64,000 nucleotides of DNA, taken from positions 11,224,501-11,288,500 of the forward strand of contig OZ019759.1 of the NCBI GenBank assembly GCA_947034885.2, in the 5' to 3' direction. Below the pieces are notes generated by a model. The model made no database searches. It saw nothing but the letters and a program-made list of their open reading frames with translations, and was not told the origin of the DNA. Of the stretch, positions 26,618-62,048 are shown piece by piece. Positions within the stretch are counted from its first letter, which is position 1. Every line of letters starts with the position of its first letter. Made by a program: the position numbers and the translations under genes. Source of the DNA: Thuidium tamariscinum. Taxonomy: Eukaryota > Streptophyta > Bryopsida > Hypnales > Thuidiaceae.

Positions 26618-26627
26618 GCCCTCCAAC

Positions 26628-26685
26628 CAGGGTTGCTATTCTGTGAGCTTGTGAGCTTGTGAGCCTATGAGCCTACTTTATTTTT
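26628..26685 (+). repeat. left terminal repeat of the MULE
   Basis: It begins CAGGGTTGCTATTCTGTGAG, followed by repeats of (T/C)TGTGAGC and CTATGAGC, then AT-rich DNA. It is matched in inverse orientation at 43205-43266 and is related to the ends at 62889 and 63596. Confidence 0.8.
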
Positions 26686-27645
26686 TTAAGTTTACATATA
26701 AATTTTTTGACCAAACATAAATAATTTTAATAAATTTTCGTGCCTATTAGTGGGGACCTATTACCGCGGACCTATTACCGTAGTCTCATAAATAACTTAG
26801 TAATTGACTTTCTTATGTACAGAAAAAAATTTGGTATTCAAATGTCCATTTTTAGGAACACCCTAATTAAATATTCTTAGGTTCATGTGAATATATATAT
26901 ATTTAGACATTCGTTTTCTATGAAGTAAATAAGAGACCTTATGTGGACTATTTATTTTGTAGCTTCACATCCATAGATAGGTTTGAAGTAATATTTTTAT
27001 CTCATATTCCATTTAAACTTATTTAGAGGGAAGACATTAATTTTGTATAAATAGATATACCCATTTCATCCCCCATTTTTTTACTTCGAGATTGTCATGC
27101 TAGTGAAATGTTCATTTGACACCCTATTTCTTTATTTGTGAGACTTTTGATTGGTGTGTATAAGATGTAATTTATAACACCAAACTTATATGACTTCACA
27201 CCTATAAGTAGATGTGAAGTTGTATTAAAATTTGTAATCCATTTTTATTTTGTTTAAGGAGAAGGCTATTGTTTTATAAAAAAACAATGACCATTTTCAT
27301 ACCCCATTTTTTTCCTTGGAGACTGTGGTACTAGTAAAATAAATATATTCTACAACCTGGTTTCTTTAGTCAAAACTTCTTCATGAAGTGAGAACATAAT
27401 ATTATTTTTGACCCCATTATTATTCATTCTAATTATTGAGTTAGTAGAACTGAATTGTATTCTGCTAGATATTAAAAGATAAAAAATAGATGACTTATCA
27501 GAATTTTTTTAATCAAATGATATTATCCCATTTAAATTTAAATGTTAATGATCAATCATTTGATAGTATTCCACAGCACCAAAAAGAATCCAACGCTTAC
27601 AACCAAAAAATTTATTTTATAATTTATTTATCAGAATCCTAGGGT

Positions 27646-27666
27646 TACCCTCAGAGCCGAGGGGTA
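27646..27666. repeat. P2 palindrome, 3' flank of gene 2
   Basis: TACCCTCAGAGCCGAGGGGT, about 320 bp downstream of the end of gene 2 (27984). Confidence 0.7.
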
Positions 27667-27983
27667 CTAAAAGCAAAGAAAAGTGAGTGATCACAAACAT
27701 TTAGAAAAGCTCCACAAATATGATATCAAGCAATTTTGAAGACAAAATGTCAGTGGTTATCTGTGAATACTAGTTGTGGAGGTCAGATATTTAGCAAAAA
27801 TTTGATGAGGGACATATGTGTGTGAACTCTTGAATAATGGTAGATTATTCCTTATGAATACAAAAATGTTAGTCATTTTTGCGCAATAACATAATCTAAT
27901 GAATAGGACGACATGTAGAATTGTTAGAATTGAAAAGGAAGAACCAAAACTAGCTAAATGCTTTAATATAAGAAAAAATAGAG

Positions 27984-30900
27984 TCATGTAGAGAATATAG
28001 ACATAGAATCAGAGTGTCTACTACTGTCAGTCGATGATGCCTCCTCTGACTCTACGGCTGCCACGTCCATATACTGTAAAACTGTAGGATCTAAAGTTCT
28101 AGGCTTGCTCCCAACACAAATACCTTTGTTAGAAGCAAATGATGAAGCTAATGCCTCTGTATACGAAGGCAATACATAGGACTTCTCTGGGCTTGGGAAA
28201 AAGCCAGGTAAAGTGAAAAATGGTCGATGACTACTTTGCCTAGGAATCATGTTGCAAGTACAAAGTAAAATATTAGAAACAAATTAAGTATTTTAATTAT
28301 ATTAGAAAAACATTGTAAAGCGATCACAAATAAAATGATGAAGATTTGTACTCACATTTTAAATAGAAGTACAACATATGGATAGACTTGCTTACTAAAG
28401 CGAGATTTCTTCATGATGTGTAGAACTTCAACAACCTCTGCATTTGGATTGTCTGAAACCAGTGTAACCGCTGGAGTTGAAGATGGACCGGTAGATGCTC
28501 TATGAATCATTGGTGCAAAAACCGCATCAAAGATGGCTTTGTCTTCTTCAAGTGCAATAATATGTCTATTCAAAATTCTGCAAGCATGAATAGAGGCCCC
28601 TAGTAGTAGATCAACAACAAAAAAAGTATTAGAAATTGAAGAAATAATGCACCAAATTTCATGATTTAGTAGGATAAATACGAAATCAAAAAATGACATC
28701 TAAATTACTTGTTGCTGCGGTACAATCTAAGACAATATCTCTTAGATGAGATGAAGCTTCAATCAACATTTGTAGAAATCGAGGATCCTTCTCACGTGCT
28801 CCTCTCCAAGGCTTAGAATTGGTGTCCATCACTAGAGTCTCCTTCTTGATATAGTTTTGAAGAATGTCATCAACGACAACATCCACACCTAACTCCTTCA
28901 ACTTTGGACACGCTTGAAATTGGAACTGAGAAAGTCTTCCATCTACAAAACTCCTAACCAACAACAGAATTCCAAACCGTTGTGTCTGCAAAACAAATTG
29001 GACTACAACCATCAATTTCATGTACCAAAAAAATTCCAGTAATAAAAATAATGTAGATAGAAAAAAACAATACAATGCATTCATAGTACAACTAAAACAA
29101 GACAATCCAAAGAAATTACTTATAAAGGACATAGAAAAAAACTTACAAATCACAAAATGGATCCTACATGAAAAACATTGATAAAAATTTCATGAAGCAT
29201 AAAAATCTAATGAAATGAGTGTACCGTGAAAGAAGGAGAAATGGGTGAAGTAAGATGAAGTCGATTCATCCCCACCAATCTTTCTTCTTCTAAATAGAAT
29301 ATAATGCTGCATATTCTAGAATGTTGGCTCTAGTCTGGTTTATCAAGGGATGAATGATGATGAGAGCCCCATCATCATGAAGGTGTCCATCTACATACTC
29401 AAAAACCTCTTGAAGCCAAGTAGGAGAATGCATATTCCACTTTGGAGAATAGCAGAGGCAGGTATAGACAAGTCTGGGACTGATAGACCTTCAGGCATGT
29501 CGGCAATCATTAAATCCATGCGAGGTTTGTCACTCTGAACTCCCTTGAAGAACCTCTCTTTAGACCCCTTGTATTGAAAAATAATTCATAGAATTAGTAA
29601 TAGTTTCAATTAGCAAAAAGAAATAAAACCATACAACATATTGAAAATTGATGTAATATAAATTTGATCAAGATGGAAAGAGAATAAACAAATAAAACCA
29701 AACAATATTTTGAGAGTGAATGCAATTCAAACCTGATCAATAAAGTGTAGAATATCATGGTACACTTGAGGTAAAGGATCTTCAAGTACTTTAGTAAAGA
29801 AGGAGTTTATAATAAATTCATGGATAGAAATCTCCAAATCAGTGAGGAACTTAAGAGTTGAAGGGCCATGTACGATGCCATCTTCACTCAAGGATATATA
29901 CTCCGCATCTCGCTTGATACCTTGAGAATGAGAACGTTGGTGCTGAGAACTCTCATCTTTGGTAGATGGCGCTGGAGCTGGAGCTTGAACCTTTGATTTC
30001 TTTCCTTTGGACTTCCCAGTTGTAGGTGCTTGTTCAGAGTCATCAACCTTCTTTGCCTTGTTCATCACTCTCTCTTTGGCCTTGTCTACCGCCTTAGAAT
30101 TCTTGAGAGCTATCTCCTTGTCCAATTCCTCCCGCTTCTTCATGGCCTTGGCTTTTGCATCTTCATTTAAGCCAGCAAATTCAGGCAAATCCGATTGAAC
30201 TCTAAGTGAGCTAATAGAACGCTTCAGGTGCTCCTCGGGAAGTGGTGTATGCTCTGGCGCACAATCTAAGTACCAAGCGCCAGATTTTAGATGAGTACTT
30301 GTCCACCACTTCAATTGAGAAGTTAAGAACATACAACGCTCCGATGATACATCTACCCAAAATCCAAGGATTAGAGGAAGATCACACTTCGCTATTGCTC
30401 CCCTGGCTAGGAGCTCAAACTTGAAATATTTGTTTTAAAAAATGAGTCAATTGCAAGAAGTATCATATCACATGACAATAATGAAATTTAAATCACTGAA
30501 ATCAAGAAGCCAATTGAAAAGAAAGACTCTCATCGATAAATGACCCGCTTGACAACAAGATCAGTGCCCTTGTGCTTCCTAAAGTCATCGGACTTCTTAA
30601 ACACATCGTGTCCCCTAAAATATGTCAGGAATGCATGATTCCAAACCCGGATTCTCCATCCCTCTAAGTACTCTGAAAACAACTCTGGCTCTTGGGGAGA
30701 ATCCATATTCAAATTCAATTGATCCTTTTTCACAAAGGTATCAAACATTTCACTTCCCACGTCTTCGATCTGTATAAGTGGAAAAAAATATGAGGGAGCA
30801 ATATCAAACATTACACAAAGTATAAGACATTCATAGCATCAACAAATCTGTAGTCATACAATCAACAAATCATTGCAATTCTATAGAATAAAATTACATA

Positions 30901-33900
30901 CCCTTGCATACTAGCACGCCTTTGTGAGAAAGGATTTTAATTCATTCTCGCCCACCGGCTTCATGGGAAACCGTCGTGCTTCTCGAGTTTGAACTGACGA
31001 GTTCCACCAACAAAGCCATTTGACCTTGTGCTCTGGTTTAACATTGCATGTTGCAATTAACTGGAGCTTCTCAAGAGTCATCTCAGAAATAATGTTGGAG
31101 TTCCAGTGCCGTTCAACCTACAAAAGAGAAAGTAATTAATGGTGGTTGAATGATAGGGAAAAAACTTCAAATTTTGTCTCTATAATGTACATACCTCTTC
31201 TAGCCATTCATGTCCCAAGATAGGATTTGCAACAACCACAAGCTTCCCCATTTTTTTTGTCAATCTTGATGCTTTCTCTTTGCTACCAATCCTCATAGCT
31301 TCGTAAATTCCTTCATGTGTTTGTTCATCTTCTGGTGTATCCTCCTTGTATACTCGTGTCGCTACATCAGCTACTGCTACAATTTCGTACTATACAAGAA
31401 TTCCAAATGGCTAAGTCAATTAGTATTTGTGTCTAATAGTAAATAATAGAATGCACAAGCAAAAAGTTATTTAGAAGCCTTACCCGAAAGATGAAAGAAG
31501 TAAAAACCTCAATGGACATAGAGTACCAACTCTTCCTCAAGTTTTGTCTACATTGTGCCATCTTAGAAGGACTTAGGTGTTTTGAGAACTTCTCCAGTGG
31601 TAGCACTCCATATTTCCGAACACGATATAGTGTGTGGACCAAATTTGTCCTGATAAAGGAATTTTCAGTTTGCATGAATAAATAAACGATGTACCATTAG
31701 AAAATTCAATCAATGTAAGAAATTAACAGACCTAATTAAACTATAAAGAGAAATTGCAAAAGTAAATGAACATACTTGTTGATATTATGCATCGCATGCA
31801 TGGCAGCACCAATTTTGGCTTTGGTTTCGAGAATTATAGAATCCACCATCTCATGCTTGTCCTTCTCATCATTGTGGTATTTCTTGATGTATGCGATCCA
31901 AGCTAGCAACCGATGGTTTCCATCGCACACAAAAAACTTTGAATTTTAAAGATGCTCCAAACCAGGGGTTTTACTCAAATAGACATTGAAGATGTCATTA
32001 TGAAAATTCCAATGTGGGCCCCAAGATTGCTTCTCTGCATCTAAAAATTTCTCTTCTACACCTTGCTCATTAGTAATGGACACATAAGAGACAGTTGAAC
32101 CATCTATGTATCCATTTACAAAATCATTCTCCAATTTAGTGAGATCACATTGCAATGCTGGCTTGACCATTGGCATGGACACCATCCTACACAAGGGAAT
32201 CCTAAGGCGTGAAATGGAATGAGGCTTCATTTGCAAATCAGTAATAGTTGCAACGGAGTTGACTTTCTGAGATTTCCTAAAAGAATCCTCAGTCATGTTC
32301 ACGTCAAGGGCCTCCAACTCCTCTTCAATATGGCCACCTTCCACGCATTCTTGAGCCGAATCATGAGTTGAATCTGTTGTATGAGTCTCCAAAGGATTTG
32401 CGATTACATCTAGGATCTACATACCAATCATACAAAGTTGTACTTAGTATGAGATTGAATCATAACAAATGTTTTAATATTTATCAAATAACATTTGATA
32501 TCAATAACCTCTTATCACCAAAAGATAAATACTAATCATCAATGATGATTCACCTTCCTTAGTCCACTCAATTAAAGTAAAACAAATAAAAAGAATACTA
32601 ATGACTATAATTAACCACATGTTTATATAATTCACACGAGCCAAAGATCATGACTACGGATGTTGGTGCTTCACTACTTGCCCTCGATGTCGAGGGCAAG
32701 ATCAACCACTTTAAAAGGTGAGAAACTATCTTTTGAGAACTTCGATCATATCAGCTGGGTTTCAAGACCTCAGAGTGTTTGGTTTGCCCTCGGCGTCGAG
32801 GGCAAGATCAACCACTTCCAAAGGTGAGAAACTATCTTCTGAAAACTTCGATCGTATCAGCTAGATCTTAAGACCTCAGAGTGTTTGGTTTGCCCTCGGC
32901 ACCGAGGGCAACATCTACTTGCTCACCAACTAACAAAATATTATACATGGACACTATTTCTATGCACCACATATCAAGACCAATGGAGTGTCATCATATA
33001 AGGTTGTAATATCATCCAAGAATCCCTTCAAGGATTAGAAGTTCTACTTGTACCCTCGGCTCTGAGGGCAAGGTCTGGCAGATGTGAAGGTGAATAAATC
33101 CTAAATAATATTGATCGAGCCCTATATCATCTGAGGACCATAATTAGATAAATGGCTAAAATTTATCCGTAAACCAACTTCATACACATGTCATTAACAC
33201 ACATAAAAAAAAATACTGAAATACTAAATATAAATGTTATATTTAAAATTATAACACAATATCATTGCCAATCATTTCAACAAATTGTTGAGACTATGGA
33301 AATGACACCGTGGATGTATCGAGCCATGGAGATTAGTACTTCAAAACTTAGGCACTGCTCAAGAACCATCGGCACCGAGAATAGAAAAGGATACCGTTAT
33401 TACTGATAAATGGCATGCATCCTACCTGCACTGATTGATAAATTCTGAACTGCTTTTATCTTTCAAATGAAGGACTGAGAACCAAATGCAAAAATAAAAT
33501 GACTCAGTTGAGCGGGACATGTCAGTTGAGCGGGACATGACACCCTATACACAACAAAATCAAATCCAAAAACAAATTGAGCGGGACATGGAAGTTCGAA
33601 GTCAACAAGGCAGGGCGGCGAATTCAAGATTCAAAATCTGACTATGGTACCGCACTTGTGAGCGGGACCCTGAATATCTGGTTTCATACCGAGTAGGAAG
33701 TCACCTTGACATTCTTCCCAGCATACCATCGGCGCCGAGAGGGTGGTACTGTAGACTCAACAGTGATCCAAACAAAGAAAGCAATCCTTTCCCAAGTCAC
33801 ATCGATTATGAATCCTGATTCGGAAAGTCACCGAGTCGCTACTGTGTGAGTATTATCGGCGCCGATGGAAGACTTGCAGTATCACCCGCGACCCCAGGTG

Positions 33901-35722
33901 TCTGGAACCTTTGAATTTACCAGTAATTGGTGGGAGCCATATGTTATGGAATCAGAGAAGAAACTCTTGTAATATGATCTATTGATTTGAAATTCGATCC
34001 AAGGGTTGCGACCGGGTTTAGCATCTGTGAATGAATTTTAAAGTCAACTGTAGGGCTTCTAAAAGTCAACTTCAAAACTCCCTGAGCGAAGGAATCGAAC
34101 AGGGACTCAAACTGCAAAATCCATCCCCCGTGTTCGCACCAACTGAACAACTCACACCGTATCCATGTAGTACTAAATACATTAATCTTTGAGTAAAAAA
34201 CCAGATATCGTAACTTACGTACAAAGAATTAAAACAATCAGTAAGCTTATTGATTGTACAACAAGACAAATTACGAGGAACCTGAAAACTCACTCCCTAC
34301 CTCAAGATTAGCATATTGTATAGTTTGAACATATTCTCAAAGGCTGACTGAGTGCGCGTGCGCATGCATCTGGACTGCACGAAGTAAAACCCAACTCTCA
34401 ACTAGGCGATGAAATCTACATGAGATATTTCTTTCTTATTTCTTTACTTATATTGAAGTTACAAATTGAGCTTACACCTTAACTGTTTCGTATTCCAGAA
34501 CTACCATAAGAGAACCGAGACTGTGCGCCCTGTGTCTCCCGACAAACTTCCGTCAGTTGATTCCGATGTAGCCATATTAAGCTTGTTATTTGCAATTGTT
34601 GCTAGGCTAGAGCAAGCTTCGTTGTCATTCGCATACATGAAGCTCACAAATGCAATCATATTCTAACAAGGAAATCGACGTATTAGGTAACGGCATGAGG
34701 CTTCAGATTATTCTCACTTCCAAAGTACTAACTCTTCAACAGCTAGAGTTAGCAATTGCGAAGTCGATGATCTTGAATCAAACCAACTTTCTTCACATGA
34801 ATTCCCTACCAGCGGCAATGAGGTCGACATTCACTCCACCAACCTCTGTCTAAAACAAAATTTTCAAACTGATTCCGTCCACGCGATCTACTGCACGTGT
34901 AGCTCTCACTCCGAGCACCGAGGCTGAACTGAAGTCCACGATCAATCAAGCTACTCAGTCTGCGGTGTTTCACTGGAGACGTCAGGAAAGCACCATTCGG
35001 CGCCGAGGGGATCCAATCTCAGTCGGACGATTGATCTGCTCTATCACCCCTCACTCTCCCAAAACTAGAACGCTTAAAAAAAATTGGTTCAATTGCAAAG
35101 TGGCCGGATCTGAAGCTTCGGATGTTGAATCCGTCGCAAAGTTGATCAGGGAGCTGAGTCCCTCGCAAAGTGGACGGATCTGAAACTGGATCTGAATCCA
35201 GCAGTTATACAGACTCCGACATATCCTACGAAAAGCTTGTGGACTTGCGGCAATTGGATTCAAGGACGATTTCTCGTTAATGCATGCCTGTGGATGTGCG
35301 ACAATCTCCACAAGCTTCTCGTTGATGCATGTCGAATCTGGAGTTTCTTCGGAGTCAAGACCGACGCTATTCATCAAACCCTAACTTGATTTCAATCGTT
35401 TTCCTTGATCCTTATACGGATAGGATACCTTTGCAAATCTATAGCCTTGATTCCGTGACTTGCTAATCACTTGCCTCCAGTGGAGAAAACGTAGAAGGTA
35501 TTGAGTTTGAAGAATTCATACCGCGATGTTCGAAGCTGTCACAACGTCTTCGTTCGTTACGGCTTTGTCTGACATTTCTACATCAGGAACTGTTTCCTCA
35601 ATGGTTCCCACCACAGCCGACACTTCTGAATTCGTTTCTCTCTCCTCACTCCCGCTCCCATCGCCATCGATGCCCTGTCTTGCTTGCGCAGAACTCCGCA
35701 TTCTCACCCAACGTTTCTCCAT
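27984..35722 (-). CDS. ParB-like/DNA methyltransferase-like gene 2
   Basis: This minus-strand gene has at least ten exons with good splice sites. The probable first exon is 35722-35523 (MEKRWVRMRSSAQARQG, acidic), followed by a 3.1 kb intron holding P2 palindromes. The next exons are 32414-31774 (ParB-like), 31652-31485, 31393-31195, 31119-30903, 30772-30530, 30421-29733 (with a Lys-rich KAKERVMNKAKK and GKSKGKKSK linker), about 29573-29290, 28985-28686, 28606-28360 and 28250-27984. Motif IV-like and motif I-like methyltransferase blocks occur in the last exons. It is better preserved than gene 1; the lesions are TAA at 31946, a TAG near 30912 and a frameshift near 29450. It is probably a nuclear, DNA-acting protein of the MULE. 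The first-exon choice is the weakest part. Confidence 0.6.
28360..29573 (-). CDS. methyltransferase domain exons of gene 2
   Basis: The blocks follow the beta-class order (motif IV before motif I). Near 29510, PRMDLMIADMPEGLS stands at the place of the catalytic (D/N/S)PP(Y/W) motif but reads ADMPE. A frameshift follows, then CYSPKWNMHSPTWLQEVF and DDGALIIIHPL, like the 'Gg-lviw' strand. The exon at 28985-28686 has KPWRGAREKDPRFLQML and DIVLDCTAAT. It splices to ASIHACRILNRHIIALEED in the exon at 28606, giving a motif I (VLDxTAATxAS...R.IialE). This resembles N4/N6 DNA methylases in which motif I comes last. SAM binding is plausible; catalysis is doubtful unless the family uses a different motif IV. 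Confidence 0.55.
31774..32414 (-). CDS. ParB-like domain exon of gene 2
   Basis: The exon opens after GTATGTAG (ILDVIANPLETHT), has an acidic stretch, then LRIPLCRMVSM, KLENDFVNGYIDGSTVSYV, EKQSWGPHWNFHNDIFNVYL, and FFVCDGNHRLLAWIAYI. The last block matches the ParB core (vvDGnHRllA), with the GxHR intact. The exon ends at a GTATGT donor (HNINK). One in-frame TAA at 31946-31948 separates the two halves; CAA would restore Gln. Compare the altered GQYS version in gene 1. Confidence 0.65.
32677..33072. repeat. P2 palindromes with a 106-bp tandem repeat (intron of gene 2)
   Basis: Four P2 palindromes: 32677-32700 (11-bp perfect arms, CTTGCCCTCGA...TCGAGGGCAAG), 32784-32806, 32889-32911 and 33047-33072. 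The first three are spaced exactly 106 bp and each starts a nearly identical unit (GATCAACCACTT...GAGTGTTTGGTT). The palindromes therefore mark the repeat boundaries. Confidence 0.85.
33367..35010. repeat. further P2 palindromes in the first intron of gene 2
   Basis: Weaker or shorter copies: CATCGGCACCGAGA at 33367, ATCGGCGCCGAGAGGG at 33728, the perfect 12-mer ATCGGCGCCGAT at 33855, and ATTCGGCGCCGAGGGG at 34995. All lie in non-coding DNA between the proposed exon 1 and exon 2 of gene 2. Confidence 0.65.
34078..34150 (-). ncRNA. possible tRNA-like (SINE-type) Pol III promoter relic
   Basis: On the minus strand, AGTTGGTGCGAACACGGG is followed about 35 bp later by GTTCGATTCC. This spacing and sequence resemble the A and B boxes of tRNA-derived SINEs. 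No complete cloverleaf can be drawn. Confidence 0.3.
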
Positions 35723-38024
35723 TGCTGCACCTTCCTGTTACAATCATGAGAGAGCAAGTCAGCACAAGCTTGTGATTCACCATTTCCTTCAAAGAAATTT
35801 CGAGTTGCTAGGATACAGCGAGCATACCTTTATAAGAGAGCTCCGACCTCGATTGCGCAGAAAAGGGGAAAGAAAGCTTGCGGAAATGGGAAGGAGCGTT
35901 ATTCAGAAGGAAAGCCCACAACCAAGACCTCCACGTAATAAGCTTGGAAGGACTATTTTTAGGATTTGGCATATTTCTAATTGAATAGGATTTGTTTTTC
36001 AAATGAGTTTTGAGACGATGTTTGTAAGGATTCTCTTTAAGTTGATTGTCTCCATTCTAGACTTTTGAATGGTGTCATTGCATCATTAGGAAGGAACATT
36101 TACTAACGTATTTTTTTTTGGCTTTAATATTTGGAATTGATCATTCCTGGATAATGGTTTTTGATTTTTTCCTATACTCTATTCCTTCTTATGATCAAAT
36201 GTTAACCTATGCATTAAAATTATGAGGAATCAATTAAGCCAAAAGCTAGAAAATGGAATTATATTATTTTAGACATTGTAAGATTCATTTTTTATACAAT
36301 ATTGTTTATTGAACTGCTAATGAGTAGAGAAAAGACACATGTGCACATAGCATAAGGTTAAAATAGTGTTCTATTTAAGGCCTAAGCAAATTTAGAACAC
36401 TTTACATTGTAGACGACTATCCTCTTGTCTTTAGACAAGTTGTCTATAGTATGTTTTTTCAATATAAATTAGTTCATTCTAGACCCTGTGCCTTTACGCT
36501 ATACATACTGAAATCTTTGGTCAATGATAGTATAGGATAGTGGCATTCTCACTAGTCTTTCTTATATCTTTCTAAGTTGTTTAAATTTTGTATGTTATAT
36601 TGCATATTAAGACACAAAAGCTCCTTCAATGTATGCCATTCATTGAGTATGGATAACAATTTCTTTCATTCCCTCATTACAGCTATAGTTCATTCAAGAT
36701 GACCTATTAATACTTTAGGTTAGGACTATTAGTAAATTACACTACTTCAGCATAGATTAAGTGATACACATATATAAAAGAGTTCTTGCAATGGCATCTG
36801 GTTCTGAATCTTAGTGAGGTAGCCTACATGATTGATCACTATCAACCTTCTTTATGTCTCTAATAGAAGTGTCCAGTGTCTAAAAGTATGTACTAAAGTG
36901 TTAAAAAACATAGCAATCAACTACTATTAGAATATAGACTTGAATCCTGAAAGAAAGTCCATTTCCTATGCCTTAATCATAGTATGATGAAACAAATTTG
37001 AAGTTCAAGGACCATAGTCAAGATGATGTCTTCTAAAGTGATTAACTTACAAATATATACAATGAATCTCTTGGGTTGCATAGGCTTGCTATCTCCTTCT
37101 CACGCAAGTACAAAGTCTCTAGAGTCCCCTTGATGATATCCTCTCCTTGGTTACCTTTGACTTACTTTAAGTTTCTAGCTTGCCCTACTAAATTGGAACT
37201 TCTATTCAATGGAACAATGAGTGATCTCTTTCGAGAGCGCTGCAACTCTTTCCACGAAGAAAAATAAAGATTCTTCCTTCTGCTCCTCTTTGTTGTGATC
37301 CGAGAACTACCCTCACATATCTCCTCTGTTGCAAGCATGAGCCTAATACTACATATATCAATCTGACTCTAATAGAAGTAGAGTTTGAATATCACTTCTG
37401 GAATACTTATAACATGTCTAAGAGGATGTTGGTACCAGAAGTTTAAACGTTAGGGAAGTCACTAATCTACTCAAAATAAGTACTATGACAAGAATTAACG
37501 GACACCAAATTTGAATGTGGATTCTATAGAATTGTAGGATCCAATTTCATAATACATTCATATCCATCCAGTCTTGGACATAATGAATATAATTGCCCGT
37601 TTCCTATGATTGCCAACTAAGAAGATAATTTTCATCTCTTGAAAAGAAAATTGGATTTAGTTAATATACAAAATTCAACCTAATAGAATGTACTATGATT
37701 TTATTTAATTAAGACATGGTCGTTGATTTTCAAAATACCTTGTTATTTGGTAAGCAGATTATTTTTGTAAAGAGTGAAATCTTTGAGATCGTTTTAGGCG
37801 GCTTTTTTAAATACATTGGATTTGCCATTATTGACGATGCTTTTTCCTGACAACTACTTACATCCTAACCGCTCTACTCTCTATCTTTCATAAGTGCATA
37901 TCTAGGACAATTTTACACCCTTATATTCTTTACTTCGATACCTCCTTCAATCATTTTTTGTTCATATGTTATCTAGTGTGCCTCATCTATGTTTGCTTTC
38001 AACTGATTTCTAATTTGATCGTCC
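35723..38024. promoter_or_regulatory. intergenic region between divergent MULE genes
   Basis: 2.3 kb of AT-rich sequence between the proposed first exon of gene 2 (minus) and the transposase start (plus). By position it must hold the promoters of both genes. I see no P2 palindrome and no certain TATA box here. Confidence 0.35.
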
Positions 38025-40187
38025 ATGGCTTCTATTTGGGCGGATGGCCATGAAATACCTTTAGTCCTTCCTCTTGGAGAAGGAGGGTTTGCTGTCATTT
38101 CTTTGCATCTGCTGCACGTTAGGTTTGGTTTTGTCCAATCTAGTATCTATGTTGAAGAAGAGGTCATGTCTGACTGTGGGAATCTGAAAGAGTCTATTCA
38201 CATCCTCAAGTTAGTTGTCGACAATGGTCATGTTTGGCACCTTCCTGTAGGGCGCTATAGAGCTTATGGCTTGCCCTCTCTTTTGATGGGTGCCTCCAAT
38301 GATGTCGTTCCTCGCCAATCAGACTATTCTACAGTCGATATGCCACTTGTTCGACGTGATGTTCTGAATTCAAAGGAGCGTGAGTACGTAGTGCTTACTA
38401 GAACAATTGTTCCACTTGTCCGTGTGAAAGAAGAATTTATAGCTCCTATCATAGATCTACCCAATGAATCTGAAGGAAAGTTGCCTAGCCAACCAAATTT
38501 ACAAGCCACTTTTCCTCAAAGGGTTGTAGATAATGGTGACTTGAAGCCAACTTCCTACCAATATAGCACACCTTCTACTAGTCCTGCTTTATCTACTCAC
38601 TCTTGCCCACTAATTTGTCCAAATAGTACTGTACTAGTTAATATCATTGGATGCCTTCGCAAGTTATCATCTATTCGTGGATCCAGGAACGAAGTTGCTG
38701 TACTAGACTATGATTCTATAATACATCGGAAAGTCCAATACCTTCCTCCACACTTTAATGGAGACGTGGTGTTTGAGTTGCCTTCTCTTCATGCTTCATC
38801 TTCAACATTTGCTGCTGGAAATCTTCATGGCATGGACAAACGTTACAATGGCCATGCATGGTGTCAAACCATGACATCCAATATCCATAATGAAGATGGT
38901 TTGAAGTTCAGGAAATCTTCTTGCGTTGGCCATTTGGTATGTAACAACTCTGACTGTGACTACTTCAAAAGATCGTCAGAACACAATGAAAGTGAATGGT
39001 GTGGTTCTACTTCTATCCCTTTCAATGTTGGCGCTCACCCTCCAAAGGATTTGACTCTACTTTGTAAGATTTGTAAGATTCCACCTGATTGTCTTAGTGT
39101 CTGTGATGCTAGAATATATTATGTTTTTAGTAGCACTACCATCATGACTAGAGCATGCATCCATTTAGGAAACCACATGCATCTTGTAGCTTCTGGAACA
39201 TGTAGAGAGTCATTAGACACTATCACAGAGCTGATTGCTGGCGAGGTTGTGAGAACTCCAACTGCCACTAACTCGTCCATCGCCTTAGTAACTAGTAAGC
39301 ATTTTCTAGAGAACCATCTCATACATAACGGGGATGGACCAAAAGAAATGTTGCAAGGGAAATCACTAGAGGATGTAATGGATAGGTTCCAATACTTAAG
39401 TTCTCCTAATATCCGAAACACTATCTCTTCTTTCCGCAGCACTGGCAAAGGTGGGATCATAGACAGTATTATGAATATGAAACAAAATTTAAAGTTTGAG
39501 TACATTCATGATAGTGTTTTTCTTGGACAAGGAAAAGAAAAAGTATATTTATTTAAGATGTTGGTAGAAGGGCCTGGTATTGGTGTGGACCTCGTGAGGC
39601 GCATGCAACCCGGAGGAGATTTGAAAAACGCGTGGCTCATGTTTGACCACGTGAAATGCGTTCAAAATTGGACAACCATGGCTTGCCACGTGTATGACAC
39701 AGGATGCAGAAAGGTTATGACTATTGCAGTTTGTGACATGCAATCTGAAGACACAGAAGTTCAATGCATTATGTGGAGATCACTGAATCAAGTGATGAAA
39801 CGAAATGGCATAGAAAGTCCAAACTTCAAGGGCTTTATGGTTGATAGTGTGCAAGCCAATTGGAATGTCATGTGTACGATATACGGCTCAGGAAATCCCA
39901 AGACATAGATGGTGAACCGTGAACGCACATGTCTCTTACATTGGAGTACTTCAATGCATCAACATACACAGAAGCTTATTAAACCAGATATGCAACACCA
40001 ACATACTCGTTTATGCCAGCAATAGAAGGATTCCAAGACAATGGCGGAAGCCGAGACACGATATTTGGCTATTCAATCTTAGTGGCTATTATCTGGTGCA
40101 GCCTCAAAAGATGCATTGCGAGAATTAGAGTTGTAGCTAGCATTTTGGCACTTCCAATATCCCCAGTGGGGATGCACTAAGCAAATG
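38025..40187 (+). pseudogene. MULE transposase, N-terminal and catalytic part
   Basis: An open frame of 627 codons from ATG 38025, continued in the same frame to a GTAAGT donor at 40188 through four TAG stops (39906, 40023, 40080, 40134). The middle has a GCM/WRKY-like zinc cluster (CVGHLVCNNSDCDYF, LLCKICKIPPDCLSVCDA, MTRACIHLGNHMH). The C-terminal half has the MULE catalytic region: KVMTIAVCDMQSED, NFKGFMVDSVQANW, then RTCLLHW, LIKPDMQHQH and SGAASKDALREL. Several stops fall where the family has Trp or Gln. It is a DDE-type cut-and-paste transposase acting on the element ends (family knowledge). It would need several repairs to be active. Confidence 0.75.
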
Positions 40188-40295
40188 GTAAGTCCGAATC
40201 ACTGCCCTTCATTTTTGTGTTTACAAAAGAATGCACAAAAATTCATTAGTTATTTGTGATAGATTTAGAGATCAAATAATGAATGGTGTAAATTA

Positions 40296-41160
40296 CCTCT
40301 CGGAGCCTAGGGGAAAAATGGATGTCTATTCTTGAGATTAATAGTTCTAGTACTATGTGATTTATAGACTAATCCGTTGATTGCAATAAGTAGGCGTTGA
40401 ATGAGGACCTGAACTTTTGTTTAGATAAATGCACATTTACATTCAAATTTTTCTCTACATCTATTAAGTAGTCATTAGTTGTGATAGATTTGGAGATGGA
40501 ATTATGAATGGTGTAATTTACCTTTCGGCGCCGAGGGAGAAAATGGATCCCTACTGTTGAGATCAGTAATTCAGGTAGTATGTGATTTATGAGCCAATTC
40601 TTACATTGAACTAAGTAGGCACTGAACTATTGTTTAGAGCAAAGGTTTACCTTCATAGCTTGATATATGATGATATATTTTAGCATTTAGGCAATGTCTC
40701 AAAAGTTTCCATTTGTGAATGTCCAAATACTGTATTTTGAGTCTTACTACAATTTTTCTGTTGTAGGGTTTGACAGTGGAAGAAATGGCTGACTTGCCAT
40801 CATGCAACTTATCTGAAATCGTACATAACATATGGTTGCAACAATTGGGTAATCAAGGTAATGATTTGTTTGCATCCACATGCGATGATTGCATTCAAGC
40901 CTTTATGCAAATGACAAATTATCGAGCATTTTGAAGGGCATTACACCAAGATCAGGGCCATCAAAAGAGGAACTTAAATTAAGAAGTGCAAGACGTAGTG
41001 GTGATCCTAAAAAGATTGCGGAGGCATTGAATGTCCTTCCTGGAGCAGCTGATGTTGCTACTCATGTTCCACACTTGGAGGGAGAGGAGGTATACGACAG
41101 TAGTGAGTGAAAGCTTGACCTTCCCATTGGTTCAGATGGAGACTTCTTGGTGCCAAGGGA
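40296..41160. repeat. P2 palindromes in introns of the MULE transposase gene
   Basis: CCTCTCGGAGCCTAGGGG at 40296, CCTTTCGGCGCCGAGGG at 40521 and CTTCTTGGTGCCAAGGGA at 41143. Each is followed by the same intron sequence (GAAAAAATGGAT...). They sit at the edges of a 225-bp and a roughly 626-bp duplication. Confidence 0.75.
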
Positions 41161-41766
41161 AAAAATGGATGCCTACTATTAAGATCAATAATTCTGGTAG
41201 AATGTGATTTATGGGCCGATTCTTAGATTGAACTAACTAAGTAGGCACTGAATTATTGTTTAGAGCAAAGGCTTGCCTTCATAGCTTGATATAGGATGAG
41301 ATAATCTAGCATTTAGGCAATGTCTCAAAAGTTTCCATTTGTGAATGTCCAAATATTGTATATTGGGTCTCACTACAATTTTTCTATTGTAGGATTTGAC
41401 TGCAGAAGAAATAGCTGACTTGTCATCATGCAACTTATCCGAAATTGTACATAACAAATGGTTGCAGCAATCGGGTAATCAAGGTAATGATTTGTTTGCA
41501 TCTACATGCGATGATTGCATTCGAGCCTTTATGCAAATGACAAATTATCGAGCATTTTTGAAGGGCATTACACCAAGATCAAGGCCATCAAAAGAGAAAC
41601 TTAAGTTAAGAAGTGCAAACGTAGTGGTGATCCAAAAAGGATTGTAGAGGCTTTGAATGTCCTTCCTAGAGCAGCTAATGTTGCTACTTGTGTTCCACAT
41701 TTGGAGGGAGAGGAGGTATTAAGCAATAGTAAGCGAAAGCTTGACCCTCCCATTGGTTCAGATGGA
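40515..41766 (+). repeat. tandem duplication of about 626 bp containing a transposase exon
   Basis: Two copies, about 40515-41140 and 41141-41766, each include an intron end (TTGTAG) and an exon starting with GLTVEEMADLPSCNLSEIV or its match. Copy 1 has lost one T in the codons for FLKG; copy 2 keeps that but has lost one base after SA(R). The two lesions are complementary. Only copy 2 continues into the downstream exon. Confidence 0.85.
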
Positions 41767-42798
41767 GACTCTTATCGGCCAGACAAGGTCAATTCCTCTC
41801 AACCTCGAGTCATGCATAGATCCACATGTACACCAACAGAGGCCTTCAAAGAAGCAAATACATTGGGTTCCCCTGAGCGCTTACCACATGTGACAATTGT
41901 GATGGAGAGTGATTGCGATACTTCTCAATGGCATATTGCAAGACTATCCCACAAATCAAGCTGCAAATGTCACGCCCAACAACGAGGATCAAACATTTGT
42001 TGCGTTGCCAAAATTGCAAAGGGCTCTATAGGCACTCCAGCTCCAACATACCATGGTAGAAAGAAACAATATGGTGGAAACAAGGAGATCATGACAGATT
42101 TTTGGTTTTGCCCAGATGATATTCATCGATGTGTTAAGGACTCGAAATGTGCTTGGGTTATCGATTGGCCTCAAGTTCCAGATGTATGGCCTGTACTGAC
42201 GGGTACAAACTTGACTCGTCAAGAAACAATGCTGTTGCAAGAAGTCGGCTTTCAGCTTCAAGATCGACCACCTATGTCACCTCGACGCTTGTTTACAATG
42301 TTCAATGTTTTTGAGGCAGTCCTCTATAATCAGCCCATTCTTTTACACGCTGAGAGCTATCCAACTACTCGAAGGAACAAGCCTATTAGATGTATTGCAA
42401 ATGCTCCTACTACAGAGCATCGCAATAAGTGGAAAAGTGCTGGGAATGTGGCAGGAACAATTTTGGGAGTTACTATGCTCTCCTTTCCTAGACTAGGAGC
42501 CATAATATCCCTTCAATCTGGAACAGAACCCAAGCAGAAAGTTTATCGAATCACACTCGGTATGTATCCAAAGTGCACATGTCCAGATTTTGTGGACATG
42601 GCTGTCTCAGCAATTGGTGGACGCCATTAGTATGTGAATTGCAAACACCTCTATTACTTATTTCGCTACTTCTGCAAAATGAAGCTTGTAGAAGACAAGT
42701 TCATTCATTCTCCAAGCTTAAGTTTCAATGAAGTGAAGTGCTTCCTCATTAAGGCTGGTATCATCAACATTCCGGAGGAAGATCTTCAACCTACCTAG
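41393..42798 (+). pseudogene. MULE transposase, C-terminal SWIM zinc-finger part
   Basis: After a CTATTGTAG acceptor the exon reads DLTAEEIADLSSCNLSEIV, then a frameshift near 41620 leads into a 325-codon frame (41653-42630) and, after TAG 42628, to TAG 42796-42798. The C-terminus carries a SWIM zinc finger, CTCPDF...(V)NCKHLYYLF, the pattern that follows the catalytic domain in MULE and FAR1-type transposases. A second Cys/His-rich part (SCKCHAQQRGSNICCVAKI, DFWFCPDDIHRCVKDSKCAW) precedes it. The stop between the two SWIM halves abolishes the finger in this copy. Confidence 0.7.
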
Positions 42799-43204
42799 AA
42801 GTGTAGAAATGTAGGGGTGCTTGAAATTTGAGTATAAAAGACTTTAGCCTCAACTTATATATGTAGGTCTAGTATCATTTATTTTTCTTTAGGAAAATAT
42901 TGATATTTGGTAGAATTTTCTATAAAGCCTTATTTCTATTATTATTTATTATTTAGACTTTGACAAGTCTACCTTTTTATAATGCAAACTTACTTGTGTA
43001 CATACCTTTTGGAAAATCTCAACTCTAACAGAATTAGTTTTTATCTATGGTTTTGGTCATAAGTCCACGGTTATAGGTCTATAGAAATACATTCTATAAT
43101 TGTGAAATGAATTTAAAATGTTGCAAAAAATGTATGGATATTTGGATTTTTTTCCTTAAAAATTTAGTTTTAAATTGCATTTTTTAATTGTGGGGCTCCT
43201 TGCT

Positions 43205-43266
43205 CACAGAATCTGTGCTCCACGCTCATAGGCTCACGCTCGCAGGCTCACAAAATAGCACCGTTG
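43205..43266 (-). repeat. right terminal repeat of the MULE
   Basis: Inverse counterpart of 26628-26685, with repeated GCTCA(C/T) motifs, ending TAGCACCGTTG. The duplicated target GCCCTCCAAC follows at 43267-43276. Confidence 0.8.
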
Positions 43267-43276
43267 GCCCTCCAAC

Positions 43277-46200
43277 AAAGTACTTTTGGGAAATTTTTGT
43301 ATGTCAAAATGAAACAGTCATTGTATTTTCATTTTCTCTTCTTCCACTATCATTCATATTTTTTTTCCAATATTTTTTCAAGTATGCTACATTTTATAAA
43401 AATTGAATAAATTTTAGTCTTAATTGTTGTTGTATTGAACTTAACAGAATCCAACCATGAAATACTGGTGACAATCATATTTAAATAGAAACATTATACG
43501 AAAGTTTTATTTTTCCCCCAAAAATAAACCGAATTTCCTCATTTATTTGTTAAGTGCTTACGATGTTTTATGAATAAATTATCCTTCAATCAATCTAAAC
43601 TCATGTTGAATCCAACTGAATTATGAGCAAACATAAAATTATAGTAGGAACGCCACTGGTATTTCTTAGAATTTGTTGAATCATAATCGAGTTTAGTTGA
43701 AATAATGAGATAATGCTAAAAATTCTTTTAATATTTAAGAAGACCTTGAAATCCACTTCCTAAAATATTAGTATTAATAATTCATAAATTTAAATTTAAA
43801 TTATACGGAAGTTTCATTTTTTTCCTTCTACATCAATTTGCACTATTTTTAAATTTTTCTGAGTGTGTTAGATATTTTAGAAATGAAAGATAGTTCAAAC
43901 ATGATTCTCACAATATTTAAAAGAACCATGCCCAAGTCTTGAATGCTAGTGCTTCTTTATTTGAATGTAAGAATATTGCATGGAAGTTTTCTATTTTTCA
44001 AATACAAAACAATTTCAATTTAAAAAACAATTTGAAGGATGTACGATTTTAACGAAATTAATAAGACTCCATTCTTCATTCTCTATCACTATACTTCAAC
44101 AAAACGAACACAATGATTAAATAATAGAAGCAACTATTTGTATGTAAAAATCATACGTAGAAAATCCCTTTATTTTTTGAACATTCCTTTGCATTTCTAA
44201 AAATTATTTCAAGAGATGTAGGACTTCCAAATAATTAATGAGAATTTCATCCTCATTAAATTTATAATTAATTAAACTATAAAAAAAAACAATTTTTTAA
44301 CTAATAATAATTGTTCGCTTAAAAAAATCATACGTACAAATTCCATGACTTTTGCTTATTAGAACTTGTTCCATTTCTTTTAGAACTTCCCCAAGTACAA
44401 ATTTTGTGAATCAATATAATGAGAGTGTCCTTTTCATTTAAAAACTTGCATCTTCTATGTCCAATTATAATTTAATGCGCATCAGTAGCCTAATTTATAT
44501 TGCATCCAACAAAAAGGGGTGCCTTGCCATTTCTTCCAAAACTTACAAAAGCTTGTAAATGTTTCCAAATTAACATATATAAAAGCCTTATAAAATATGT
44601 GAAGCTTGGAAAGTCATAAAACATTCATGTTCTATGAACAATTTCAAATTCATGCTATATAATTGCTTAATTCCTATTAGATGCACAAATATGTACTTCC
44701 TTGCCAATTTTTTAATATTTTGCAAAAGCGTGTTAATGTTTCCAAATTCATGTGCATGAAAGCCAAAAAAAATATGTAGAAGTTGGAATGACATAGAACA
44801 TTCATGTTCTACAAACAATTTTTAATTCATGCTACATAATTGTTTAATTCCTATTAGATGCACAAATATGCACTTCCCTGCCAATTTTGTAAATATTTTG
44901 CAAAAGCATGTCAATGTTTCTAAATTCATGTGCATGAAAGCCAAAAAAAAATGCAGAAGTTGGAATAACATAGAACATTCATGTTCTAAAACCAATTTTT
45001 CATTTCTTTTAGAATTGTACAATGCAAAAGATGTCCTTGAATGTAAAGAGAGTTCAATTGCGATAAAAGTTTTATTAATATAAGAAAACGAATTTCAATA
45101 ATTAAATATTCCTAAACCTATGTGTGAGTAAACACATACATAGAAGTTTTGTTTCATCCCCTAAAATCAAATGAAATTAATTTTCAAGTGTCAAAGTATT
45201 TAGGATATTCAAAAATTCATGACACTTATAAAAGATTAAAAGCTTAAAGGTAAGAAACACCTAAAACATTATTTTCATATGAAATTAGATTTCTTTTAAC
45301 ATTTGGTGCTTTTAAGATTTAAAAAAAATATTCTTTGAAATTTGAAACCAATGTCATTCTGTGGTTAAGTATCACCAAAGGAAAGTGCTTAAATGTTAAA
45401 TTCAATTCTGAATGAAGAAGTGTTCAAGAGCGAGATGTATATATTGAAATTTATTTATATTTATTTGATAAAGATCTACAAATATTTTCAAGTTGTACCT
45501 ATTTTATTTGGCTATACTTCTTGTCTAAAATGAATGCCTTTTTATAAATTGATTTTTAATGAAATACAATGTCTGCTTTTTTTATAGAATTTGTAAATGT
45601 CTGAGTGACAAAAGAGAATGTCATCTATATTTTTTTGGCATGCATCATAAATCTTTTGAAGATTGGAACTTGTATGTTTTTTCTACCATGCTTCAATATA
45701 GATTCATGAAACTTAATTTGTAGATTTGGTTTGTACAACATGCCGTATTTTAGGATTGTTGCACATTTCAAGTAAGAGAGTGCAAAGAAATGTGGTCTTT
45801 AGAAAAAATATTCAATGAATCTTCAAAATATTCGCCATTTGTAGATTTAGGTGGACAATTACATGTTGACTATGAAAAGTTATTCACTCTTCAATTGCGC
45901 AACATTAGGGTTTCTCATGTTTTTATTATAAAGTCACAAGACAAATAATTATAAATACTAAAGGTCTATGGAGACTGAAATCCTAAACAATGTATACATT
46001 ATTTCTATTCATAGGTTTTTCCTAGAAGATGCTTCCTAAAACCTAACTCTTTTGAATTGCAAAATGGAAGGGGAGTCCAATATTTCAATATTGAAAATCT
46101 GAAAATCCAAAGGCCTTAATCCTAAACCCTAACCCTAAACCCTGAAACGTCAATCCTTTAGTCTTAGAAGAAGTGGAGCTGTATTTAGCATAATGTTGAC

Positions 46201-47995: not shown

Positions 47996-50727
47996 ATGAA
48001 CTCCTCAGTTGTTCACGACAATGTGATGGACTCGTCCGACGATGACTTCCAAGTTCTTGAAGGGATGAATGTTGGCATTCCTGAGTGCGAAGGGCTTTCG
48101 TATCGACTTTAAAACACCATGTGTGTCACTTTGTATAATTTTCATGGAACGCTTGTTGGAGAAGGTACTTGTCATAGTGTGAACTCAAACCTTGTGTTGG
48201 GGGCCAACGGCCCTCTAGGTGACACTCATGTCGCAGTTCACATCTCAAAAACACATTCGAAGGATGACATTCCACAGGAGCACGTCTACTCATTGATGGC
48301 ATGGCCGATTGATTACGTGATTGTCGGGGGGCTATTTTGCGCGATCACGAGGCACGAGATAATTTCAATCGTTTGCAAGCAAGGATTTTAAACCCACCAT
48401 CGTTGACATTTGCTTGACCATACACAAGTGTCATTCGACAACCGCGTTGTGAGATTGGCTTGAAAGCGAAAGAACTTCTCACCCAGGAGTCCATCAATGC
48501 AGTCTCAAGCAAAATATGTTGCTCCAAGAATTTCATTCAGCTATTTCTAAGGGGAAAAATTTGGACGTTTTGGGAACGCATTTGACATTTAAGTTCAAAG
48601 CTTACATGAAGACAGACGTTCACAAGTCCGTTCACGTTGATTCAAGTGGAAGGAAGATGGTGGTGGTGGAAGGGATCAGTGTCTGCATGCGAGCGTGGAT
48701 GCTCATTTCCGGCGTACCGGAGGCCACTTTCTACCGCTACCAAAAGTATACAAACAATAATCAAGAGGCAAGAGAGCATGGGAATTCAAAATTATACAAG
48801 CCAAGACAGTATACAGAACAAGCAGCTACTACACTCAAGTACATCCTTGACAAGGAAACTGATCACATGCCTCACAAGACTTGGAGTATCAAGTCTGGAG
48901 AGAAGATTGTTCCTATGATTTTGCCCTCTATCTTTCAGTGGAGGGGTCAAATGAAAACAATCAATGAAACCAATGCAGCATTTGGACTGAGGGAGATCTC
49001 CATCTCAAACTTGAGCAAAATTAGATAAAAGAAGTTCTCAAAGTTTGAGGTAAAGAAGCCAGGAGATAACTTTGCACAATGCGCTACTTGTAATCAATTG
49101 CAAGAGTTGAGGAAGAGTGCTTTGGTAGGGTCTATTAGCGCATTGAAATGGTCGAGGAGGTTGGACAAACATCTTGCTATTGCTCACGCTCATAGGGAGT
49201 ACTACTATGCCAATCGCTACCGTTCCTTTAATCATCCTCATGAGTGCTTGACAATTATGCACGAGAAGATGGACCATGCTAAGACAGCTTGCCCTGTGTT
49301 TTCACACAAGAGCAAGGACACAGATGGCTTCACTAAGTTGCCAATTTCTGTTACGGGCATGATTGCTCATGGTCATGGTGATGTCCGTTATGCTCACTAT
49401 GGCTTGGATATCTTCCCCCACGATTCCAATTATACCATTGGCTCGATGGCAAAATTGTTACAAGATCTAGAGGAACCACCAAAGTCTTCTTCAAGAATGT
49501 TGTTTATGGGATTAGGGTCCACCAATTTGTTTCAAAAAGTATTGAAGGGTGCAGAGATGTGTGAAGCATCAATACCCCTCTCCACCGCAAACTTTTGTTT
49601 TTGGAACACCATTGCCACCAATTCTCAATGTGTAGATGAACAATGCAACCGGCCACAACAAAAACCGATACGTTTTTTGTTTTTGGTCTCTTCTTGTGGC
49701 TAATAAGATCTTTTGCGAGGTGTATGTGAATTTCATGATTGTTGGGCACACATACGACAACATTGATGCATTGTTTGGAAGATGGAGTATGCTATTGGAG
49801 AAGGAGAACTTTCTAATGATTCCGGAGCTCATGAAGTCATTCATGGACGTGAAGTCCATTCCAACTATTCCTCATCTCATAGAAGAAGTCCCAGACTTCA
49901 AGGGGTTTATAGCGGGTGCATTTGTTGATGGTGATGAGATTCTTATTGGGCATACAAAGCCACAACAGGTGAAGTTCTACCTAGAGGTGAATGGTGTTCC
50001 GGTCATGAAGTACAAATTGCTTTGCACCGATCTCGAATGGTTAGATGAGGATGGTAGAGGTATCAAGTTGTGGAAGGAAGATTGTGAGGGACATAGTTTG
50101 TGGCCTCGTGGAGTGCCACTGCCAGTTCCACCTAAACCAATGAGAGGGGTGGAGGACATTGAGAAAGGCATAGTAGGGTTCGTAAAGTGTTGGGAGAACT
50201 TGTATAATGCAGATGTTACAGGCGAGGGTCGAAGGCGTTACGAGCATTTAGTGCACTATTGGCGTGATGTAAAGAATGCGTTGCAAGAACCAGTCACTGC
50301 CTCCATGGTTTTGAAGGATGGTTTTTAGCCAAATACTCGAGTAGAAGCCATTGCAACCGATCAGTTAGGAGAAGATGGTGATGACCTTGAGGAATTTGGA
50401 GAGGATGATGCTTATGTTGGGCCTTTGCAAAGTCACCGACAACCTTCTTTTAGAGTTGGTCATGATCTCTTTGAAGGTTATTTTGTAGCAGTTCGTCCTT
50501 CAGATGGTGATACACGACCAATTTGGATTGCAAGCTCATTATCAGATCCAAACTGCAACCCGGAGCACCCAAATTGTGTGCTCATCCAATATTTTCGCCC
50601 AACATCAAGAGACCAAGATGTGCGAGACTACTATACTGGTTGGGATAGTGCAAGAGGTCTACGTTGGAAGGTGGATATAATCGATCCACCAATTTGGGAG
50701 CACATGAATGCATTAATGATTGCATAG
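47996..50727 (+). pseudogene. DUF7869-type, probably transposase-like gene
   Basis: From ATG 47996 (MNSSVVHDNVMDSSDDDF) the gene runs through several frames: 47996-48340, then about 48340-48500, 48516-49570 and about 49575-50727. Recognised blocks are LYNFHGTLVGEGTCHS and LMAWPIDYV, a middle part (WMLISGVPEATFYRY), CATCNQLQELR, HEKMDHAKTACPVF, ISVTGMIAHGHGDV, DIFPHDSNYTIG, MNNATGHNKNRYVFCFW, MIVGHTYDNIDALF, and a C-terminal module (HDLFEGYFVAVRP, FRPTSRDQDVRDYYTGW). The DxM/VQMDN/GHTHxDID-like series fits the DUF7869 family, which looks like an RNase H-fold transposase core (inference). The expected second Asp is Asn here, and the stops (TAA 49026, TAG 49633, TAG 50326) fit C-to-T decay. It is not active as it stands. 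Confidence 0.6.
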
Positions 50728-61744: not shown

Positions 61745-62048
61745 ACAAAAAATAGGAAGGGATAATGGTTCTTTTCCAAATTATATGTATCCCCTACACT
61801 TAATAAAAAGAATGGGAAGGGACAAGGTTTTTTTTCCAAATGATATGTATCCCCTACACTTAATAAAAAAAATAGGAAGGGATAAGGGTTCTTTTCCAAA
61901 TGATATGTATCCCCTGCACTTAATTAAAAAAATAGGAAGGGATAAGGGTTCTTTTCCAAATGATATGTATCCCCTACACTTAATAAAAAAAATAGGAAGG
62001 GATAAGGGTTCTTTTCCAAATGATATGTATCCCCTACACTTAATAAAA
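61745..62048. repeat. 60-bp tandem repeat, about five units
   Basis: Units of exactly 60 bp (core GATATGTATCCCCTACACTT, then AATAAAAAAAATAGGAAGGG). Two middle units are nearly identical; outer ones differ by a few bases. Open frames on both strands here are a by-product of the repeat. Confidence 0.9.

Follow-up and report, generated by a model that had tools for sequence, protein, structure and literature searches.

A defective two-gene Mutator-like element

The stretch analysed here, hereafter the window, comprises 64,000 nucleotides of the moss Thuidium tamariscinum (contig OZ019759.1, positions 11,224,501 to 11,288,500; C11:11224501-11288500 in our contig naming), and searches covered the host genome, 363.2 Mb in 19 contigs, in which chlorophyll a/b-binding genes (49 matches) mark a green plant. 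It contains a defective copy of a two-gene Mutator-like element (MULE), which consists of a transposase gene (gene 1), a divergent gene (gene 2) and arrays of a short palindrome. The element is delimited by the following features (strand is given where one applies):

26618..26627, target-site duplication, left copy, GCCCTCCAAC
26628..43266, whole two-gene Mutator-like element, 16639 bp
26628..26690, left end, CAGGGTTGCTATTCTGTGAGC with tandem GTGAGCYT-like units; relatives of the left end lie at other loci
43204..43266, right end, GTGAGC-type repeats with terminal ...GCTCACAAAATAGCACCGTTG
43267..43276, target-site duplication, right copy

The original prediction for this DNA had described inverted ends agreeing at 17 of 21 bases and a perfect 10-bp duplication, and we recovered both. 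The sequence GCCCTCCAAC occurs exactly twice in the window, both times flanking the element (expected 0.07; two occurrences in none of 100 shuffles). That prediction did not mention that both genes of this copy are broken, by stops and by a duplicated exon region.

Two further copies were read whole, c2 (16538 bp, contig C2) and c4 (16476 bp, contig C4), which are copies of the kind, 15–18 kb with the same ends, that had been proposed as a check. Their terminal agreement is 17/21 (c2, as in the window copy) and 19/21 (c4). All three copies can be aligned over both genes, have an identical gene order and carry three different perfect 10-bp target duplications. Related copies whose borders leave gene 2 outside would have refuted the original prediction; full-length copies with their own duplications include it.

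Genome searches retrieved at least 42 matches with the right end and at least 40 with the left end, in lists that depend on the query, and the ends pair up into large elements; the element thus belongs to a large family in the host genome. Among ten end pairs of 7.5 to 28 kb (the window, c4 and eight others including c2), four show perfect 10-bp duplications, three agree at 9/10 positions and one at 8/10, one has an exact 9-bp duplication and one, on contig C9, has none. MULEs produce target-site duplications of 8–11 bp, which is the range seen here.

The copy c4 interrupts the ParB exon of a different copy of gene 2. When its flanks are joined without the element and one duplication, a single continuous frame runs through DGNHK...MHDINK and is nearly identical to the sequence of an undisturbed copy (L019). 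The borders of c4 are fixed by this restored frame, and the host copy shows that a second, divergent subfamily carries the same gene.

Gene-less elements of about 1.4 kb, too small for the two genes, have the same ends. A candidate right end was found at 8 of the 22 left-end loci searched, with duplications of 10/10 in four, 9/10 in two, 8/10 in one and none in one. The seven good short elements are mutually 91–96% alike; with their shared ends, target duplications and palindromes, they (L067, L068, L074, L076, L080, L083 and L084) make up a non-autonomous family.

Gene 1 encodes a Mutator-like transposase

The inferred intron-exon model of both genes places the following parts in and around gene 1:

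38025..40187 (+), gene 1 exon with N-terminal ubiquitin/PB1-like fold, GCM-like domain and RNase H-like core (from the model of a homologue); four in-frame stops in the window copy
40250..41770, tandemly duplicated gene 1 region, spacings of 225 and 626 bp; its palindromes at 40300 and 40525 are non-coding
41713..42795 (+), C-terminal exon of gene 1, carrying SWIM-like CTC...NCKH; the window copy has one in-frame stop

The two main parts of gene 1 in the window copy thus hold 4 + 1 in-frame stops. MULE transposases are RNase H-fold DDE enzymes related to IS256, with a C-x2-H after the second catalytic D and with zinc and SWIM parts. For the predicted structure of a gene 1 homologue, the top two Foldseek matches were a GCM domain and the ISCth4 transposase, which we take to be of the IS256 family; gene 1 thus shows the expected fold and relationship. 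Across 49 gene 1 homologues, D583 is invariant and C612 and H615 are at least 90% conserved, and the SWIM-like CxC...CxH (CTC...NCKH) was recognised by eye only, so that the C-x2-H, zinc and SWIM parts are all represented. Pfam searches with E values up to 1 gave no match for the two window gene 1 parts or for six homologues, profiles being able to miss divergent members, and a transposase profile found nothing convincing among PDB sequences. The MULE transposase with GCM-like and SWIM motifs of the original prediction is borne out by the Foldseek matches, its SWIM part by eye. In pairs with c4, the ratio of nonsynonymous to synonymous substitution rates (dN/dS) of gene 1 is 0.12–0.20.

Gene 2 combines a predicted ParB/sulfiredoxin fold with a methylase-like region

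Gene 2 is divergent from gene 1 and is modelled as follows:

35524..35722 (-), possible first exon (MEKRWVRM...), low confidence; by eye, no Pfam match
31775..32416 (-), exon with ParB/sulfiredoxin-fold domain (DGNHR), the fold from relatives; one in-frame stop in the window copy
30545..31648 (-), middle-region exons 30545-30769, 30905-31117, 31195-31389 and 31496-31648
29733..30419 (-), exon, middle region
29269..29567 (-), exon carrying a changed methylase motif IV (IADMPEG), its frame disrupted in the window copy
28710..28985 (-), exon with methylase-like motif I (VLDCTAAT, then GAS in the next exon)
28002..28600 (-), last exons, 28391-28600 (residues after methylase motif I) and 28002-28241

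The window copy of gene 2 contains at least three stops. Its only named relative, at 28% identity, is in the moss Ceratodon purpureus (P0001, gene M758_1G295400). The methylase family PF01555 matches the window gene with 24.6 bits (E 2.8e-5), just below the curated cut-off of 26.7, and the Ceratodon relative with 30.4 bits (E 4.9e-7), above the cut-off and over nearly the whole domain; a PHROG DNA methyltransferase profile also matches the methylase region (E 5.6e-6). Pfam gave no ParB match in either the window gene 2 or the Ceratodon relative, and a ParB profile retrieved nothing convincing from PDB sequences. A ParB/sulfiredoxin fold is nevertheless predicted for relatives of gene 2, in agreement with membership of that superfamily, which has a conserved G-x-x-R type box. 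The corresponding DGNHR box is invariant in five divergent ParB exons and conserved to at least 90% in 75 proteins. Both relationships, to ParB and to methylases, were thus found by the profile and fold searches on which the original prediction had staked its divergent gene with a ParB core and methyltransferase-like blocks; that description holds for the predicted fold and the relation to PF01555, and it lacks a Pfam ParB match and an above-threshold PF01555 score in the window copy. Taken together, gene 2 is best described as coding for two parts, first a domain with a predicted ParB/sulfiredoxin fold and then a region that is related to DNA methylases of the N4/N6 type.

A premature stop shared by most ParB copies was considered and rejected, the frame being open to MHDINK in seven of the eight exons translated (L014 has a stop). 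In the host copy of c4 a stop follows MHDINK, at the end of the ParB exon.

In N4/N6 amino-methyltransferases the catalytic motif IV is (D/N/S)PP(Y/F/W) and the usual motif I is a DPFxGSG-type loop. Motif IV of gene 2 reads DMPEG in the window copy and c4, DMPKG in c2 and DTPF in Ceratodon; of eight short stretches from the host genome, seven have DMPEG or DVPEG and the eighth (L085) has EYPNG. Motif I is DCTAAT-GAS in the window copy and c4, DCTAAA in c2 and DLSASTGAS in Ceratodon. Since the catalytic motif is altered, we file gene 2 as methylase-like rather than as a methylase; since motif IV is kept in a changed form, simple decay does not account for it.

Gene 2 is under selection and is frequently paired with the transposase

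Between the window copy and c4, gene 2 has a dN/dS of 0.15 (dN 0.180, dS 1.226, 1032 codons), and between c2 and c4 of 0.13 (1033 codons), both approximate values because dS is near saturation, and infinite for some exons. The methylase-like exons are under the same constraint.

We scored 62 transposase loci of 993 candidates for gene 2 features, taking as partners the union of methylase and ParB match lists (149 methylase matches, two lists of 150 ParB matches and 18 of 40 further ParB loci; matches of the P0053 query were left out). A gene 2 feature lies within 15 kb on the divergent side at no fewer than 40 of the 62 loci. A first pairing analysis, with 70 of the 149 methylase matches, had given 19 pairs for the 62 loci, and two later analyses with further ParB queries brought this to 40; random placement gave means of 2.0 and 1.2 pairs in these two later analyses. 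A non-divergent orientation was seen for one feature at C9:566879, a locus that also has a divergent partner, and, in the first analysis, for one pair at 20.9 kb. Transposase and gene 2 are found as a pair in numerous copies, which belong to several subfamilies. A hint of linkage in other assemblies comes from transposase P0011 and ParB P0106, both on 185737-nt contigs, and from P0047 and P0108, on 583271-nt contigs.

The original prediction left undecided whether this module was cargo or a working part of the transposon. Purifying selection and the frequent divergent pairing with the transposase favour the second option and disfavour the first, and gene 2 is very probably a working part of the element, as judged from these sequence comparisons.

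Palindrome arrays in the non-coding DNA of the element

The non-coding DNA of the element contains repeated copies of the palindromic 10-mer TCGGCGCCGA:

27651..27660, palindrome near the left end, two mismatches
32678..32915, 106-bp tandem repeat, 2.2 copies, holding palindromes 32790 and 32896; non-coding, 5' of the gene 2 ParB exon
32790..35006, palindrome array TCGGCGCCGA, sites at 32790, 32896, 33056, 33369, 33729, 33856 and 34997, up to two mismatches

Exact copies number four in the window element, six in c2 and five in c4, with none in 200 shuffles per element. When all 1024 palindromes of 10 bp are ranked, TCGGCGCCGA comes 1, 2 and 1 (window, c2 and c4) by exact matches and 2, 2 and 1 with one mismatch, being outranked by AT-rich words only. 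With up to two mismatches there are 10, 11 and 11 sites, against two in the 47.3 kb of the window that lie beyond the borders of the element. All ten sites of the window element are non-coding, though 42% of it is coding by the exon model. Pooling 47 sites from six sources, with both strands counted, yields an extended palindrome of approximately CCCTCGGCGCCGAGGG. The intergenic DNA of c4 hardly aligns with that of the window copy, yet sites occur in both.

A site with up to one mismatch lies inside the element at 23 of 29 left-end loci and outside at none of them (the window's own locus excluded). Genome-wide we counted 348 palindrome sites, versus 42 for a reversed control that has one CpG fewer. 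On contig C1, 31 of 47 sites have a listed ParB exon no more than 10 kb away or a listed end no more than 15 kb away, where 0.6 were expected and 2000 trials gave 4 at most; a shorter feature list had placed 22 of the 47 near features (expected 0.8). The seven gene-less elements, with duplications of 8/10 to 10/10, carry palindromes 385–502 bp from their left end.

Other features of the window and the genome

ParB exons of gene 2 are concentrated on C11, with 42 of 150 listed places against 7.2 expected by length, in a list that depends on the query. This contig, of 17.5 Mb, is the smallest of 11 large contigs, and might, as a guess, be a sex chromosome or another chromosome of low recombination. 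Three long open reading frames (ORFs) of the window, 1318-2664 (+), 9006-10544 (-) and 14670-16367 (-), are related by eye through PWNLKDE/PWGFKEE and VYGF blocks and probably belong to another repeat family. Also by eye, the ORF 53888-54469 (-) resembles a fragment of a Ty3/gypsy reverse transcriptase, and an ORF series at 48453-50328 (+), with a GHTYDNIDALFGRWS block, is possibly another transposon protein. Tandem repeats outside the element lie at 44546-44998 (177 bp, 2.6 copies) and 61747-62054 (60 bp, 5.1 copies, 93% matches).

A putative self-recognition system

ParB proteins bind palindromic parS sites, and CTP binding and parS sliding are further traits of the superfamily. A self-recognition system fits the element because a ParB-fold protein kept by a transposon coincides with a palindrome array 5' of its gene in the same transposon. 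We propose, with a probability of about 0.5, that the second protein of this two-gene MULE would recognise the palindromes of the element that encodes it and so mark or shield that element, in the manner of VANC. The gene 2 protein would bind the palindromes (approximately CCCTCGGCGCCGAGGG) of its own element, gene-less copies included; once bound, it would mark or shield the DNA against host silencing, or assemble the element for transposition. By analogy with ParB, it is slightly favoured that the gene 2 protein recognises the palindrome, and the chances are even that this would serve anti-silencing or self-marking and not transposition. The original prediction had suggested marking or hiding of the element; this we still infer, and the palindrome arrays now offer a concrete candidate target. 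A fuller version, after ParB and parS, is rather improbable: the protein would load on its own arrays and spread over or coat the copy in cis, shielding it from plant silencing or labelling it against it, each subfamily would evolve its own palindrome and matching protein, and the methylase part would be kept as a base-flipping or S-adenosylmethionine-sensing domain and not as a methylase of the ordinary sort.

Several observations weigh against the proposed system. In the close pair formed by the window copy and c2, dN/dS rises to 0.45 in gene 2, with two exons above 1, and to 0.49–0.67 in gene 1; both are expected of post-insertion decay, but the sign of selection is weaker. No gene 2 feature appeared among the matches listed for 22 of the 62 transposase loci, which may lack gene 2 or have relatives that were not listed. 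The DGNHR box is altered in some copies (NGNHR in c2, DGNHK in the host of c4), and motif IV differs from (D/N/S)PP(Y/F/W), the catalytic signature of the PF01555 family, in every copy read. Of the 22 ParB loci listed on C1, just 5 have an exact palindrome within 10 kb, and 16 of the 47 C1 sites are near no listed feature. None of the 29 right-end loci has a site on either side of the border, the inner 1.5 kb included, and in the seven short elements no stronger conservation of the palindromes than of the remainder is visible. Sites with up to one mismatch are absent from L016, L019 and L020, three loci that diverge further, and we therefore regard the palindrome as a trait of some subfamilies; a search of 1.5 kb at these loci for a different palindrome showed no enrichment of any.

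The alternatives to the self-recognition system are not mutually exclusive. Plant MULEs can carry gene fragments, and gene 2 could be a functionless passenger captured once, like those of Pack-MULEs, a view with which the decay of the window copy and the 22 partnerless loci would agree. We rejected it on the dN/dS of 0.13–0.15 between subfamilies and the divergent pairing at 40 or more of 62 loci; with the Ceratodon relative at 28% identity and 108 of 150 listed ParB exons without an internal stop (counted by eye), it is highly improbable. An active DNA methyltransferase of unusual specificity, modifying its own element at N4-C or N6-A as a self-mark, is suggested by the nearly whole PF01555 domain of P0001, the PHROG match, the selection on the region, the motif IV D retained in seven of the eight short stretches and the Ceratodon DTPF, which is closer to DPPF. 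The replacement of the first P and of the aromatic residue (D[MV]PEG in 7/8, EYPNG in L085), together with the changed glycine-rich motif I (DCTAAT, DLSAST), argues against this. DNA methylation by the gene 2 protein is doubtful, because the replaced motif, mostly D[MV]PEG, is found in every copy read; gene 2 as an ordinary DNA-modifying enzyme, as first proposed, is accordingly unsupported, and its product may be a non-catalytic methylase fold.

Gene 2 could instead be a transposition helper and have no role in silencing; through binding or nicking of the palindromes, its ParB-like domain would assemble the element and so serve the transposase as an accessory. The retention of palindromes near the left end of the seven gene-less elements is consistent with this, as is the non-specific nicking reported for the bacterial ParB-methylase fusion Bce_0392 (PMC5512222). 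Sites for transposase assembly would be expected at both ends, whereas 7 of the 10 window sites lie between the genes and the right-end loci have none, which makes the helper role unlikely. Finally, the palindromes might be sites for the transposase or for a host factor, and the target of gene 2 might be another: the link between protein and palindrome is indirect, and gene-less elements retain the palindrome too. Against this reading, which is possible, if not probable, stand the position of the arrays, upstream of copies of gene 2, and their restriction to certain subfamilies of that gene.

Relation to known systems

MuDR, with mudrB, is a two-gene autonomous Mutator element, and the element described here can be likened to it by gene number alone. 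To our knowledge, few systems of transposon-coded counter-silencing exist. VANC of Arabidopsis is reported to remove silencing from its own MULEs, where it binds short motifs that have accumulated in non-coding DNA, often in tandem (PMC5735166, PMC10398659). As in VANDAL elements with VANC, the moss MULE has an accessory gene besides the transposase, and arrays of a short motif in its own non-coding DNA, partly in tandem repeats in introns and differing between subfamilies; unlike there, the motif is palindromic and gene 2 joins a predicted ParB fold to a methylase-like region, VANC being compared by description only.

The closest precedent that we found for methylases in eukaryotic transposable elements is that of retrotransposons of dinoflagellates and charophytes, which carry C5 DNA methyltransferases shown to be able to methylate CG (PMC5890265). 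These share with the moss element a DNA-methylase-type gene in a eukaryotic transposable element, but they are RNA elements with C5 enzymes, and here a DNA element carries a relative, possibly inactive, of bacterial-type amino-methylases. In domain architecture, the closest counterparts that we found are bacterial and phage fusions such as Bce_0392, in which a ParB/Srx domain is fused to an N6/N4-type methylase (PMC5512222); in contrast to this prokaryotic setting, gene 2 belongs to a nuclear transposon, contains introns, includes a long middle region and has its catalytic motif changed. We found no description of a MULE with ParB or methylase in the open-licence PMC literature, and we regard as new the replaced catalytic motif in every copy read and the palindrome arrays in the non-coding DNA of the element.

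In this element, a prokaryotic-type DNA-recognition and methylase-like protein is a lasting part of an abundant family of plant DNA transposons, with candidate targets in the family's own DNA. Protein and site form a directly testable pair, which may explain how gene-less derivatives are carried along and might provide a sequence-specific epigenome tool from a moss. The combination of a ParB-type gene with palindromes of its own suggests a way in which a transposon may mark or shield itself.

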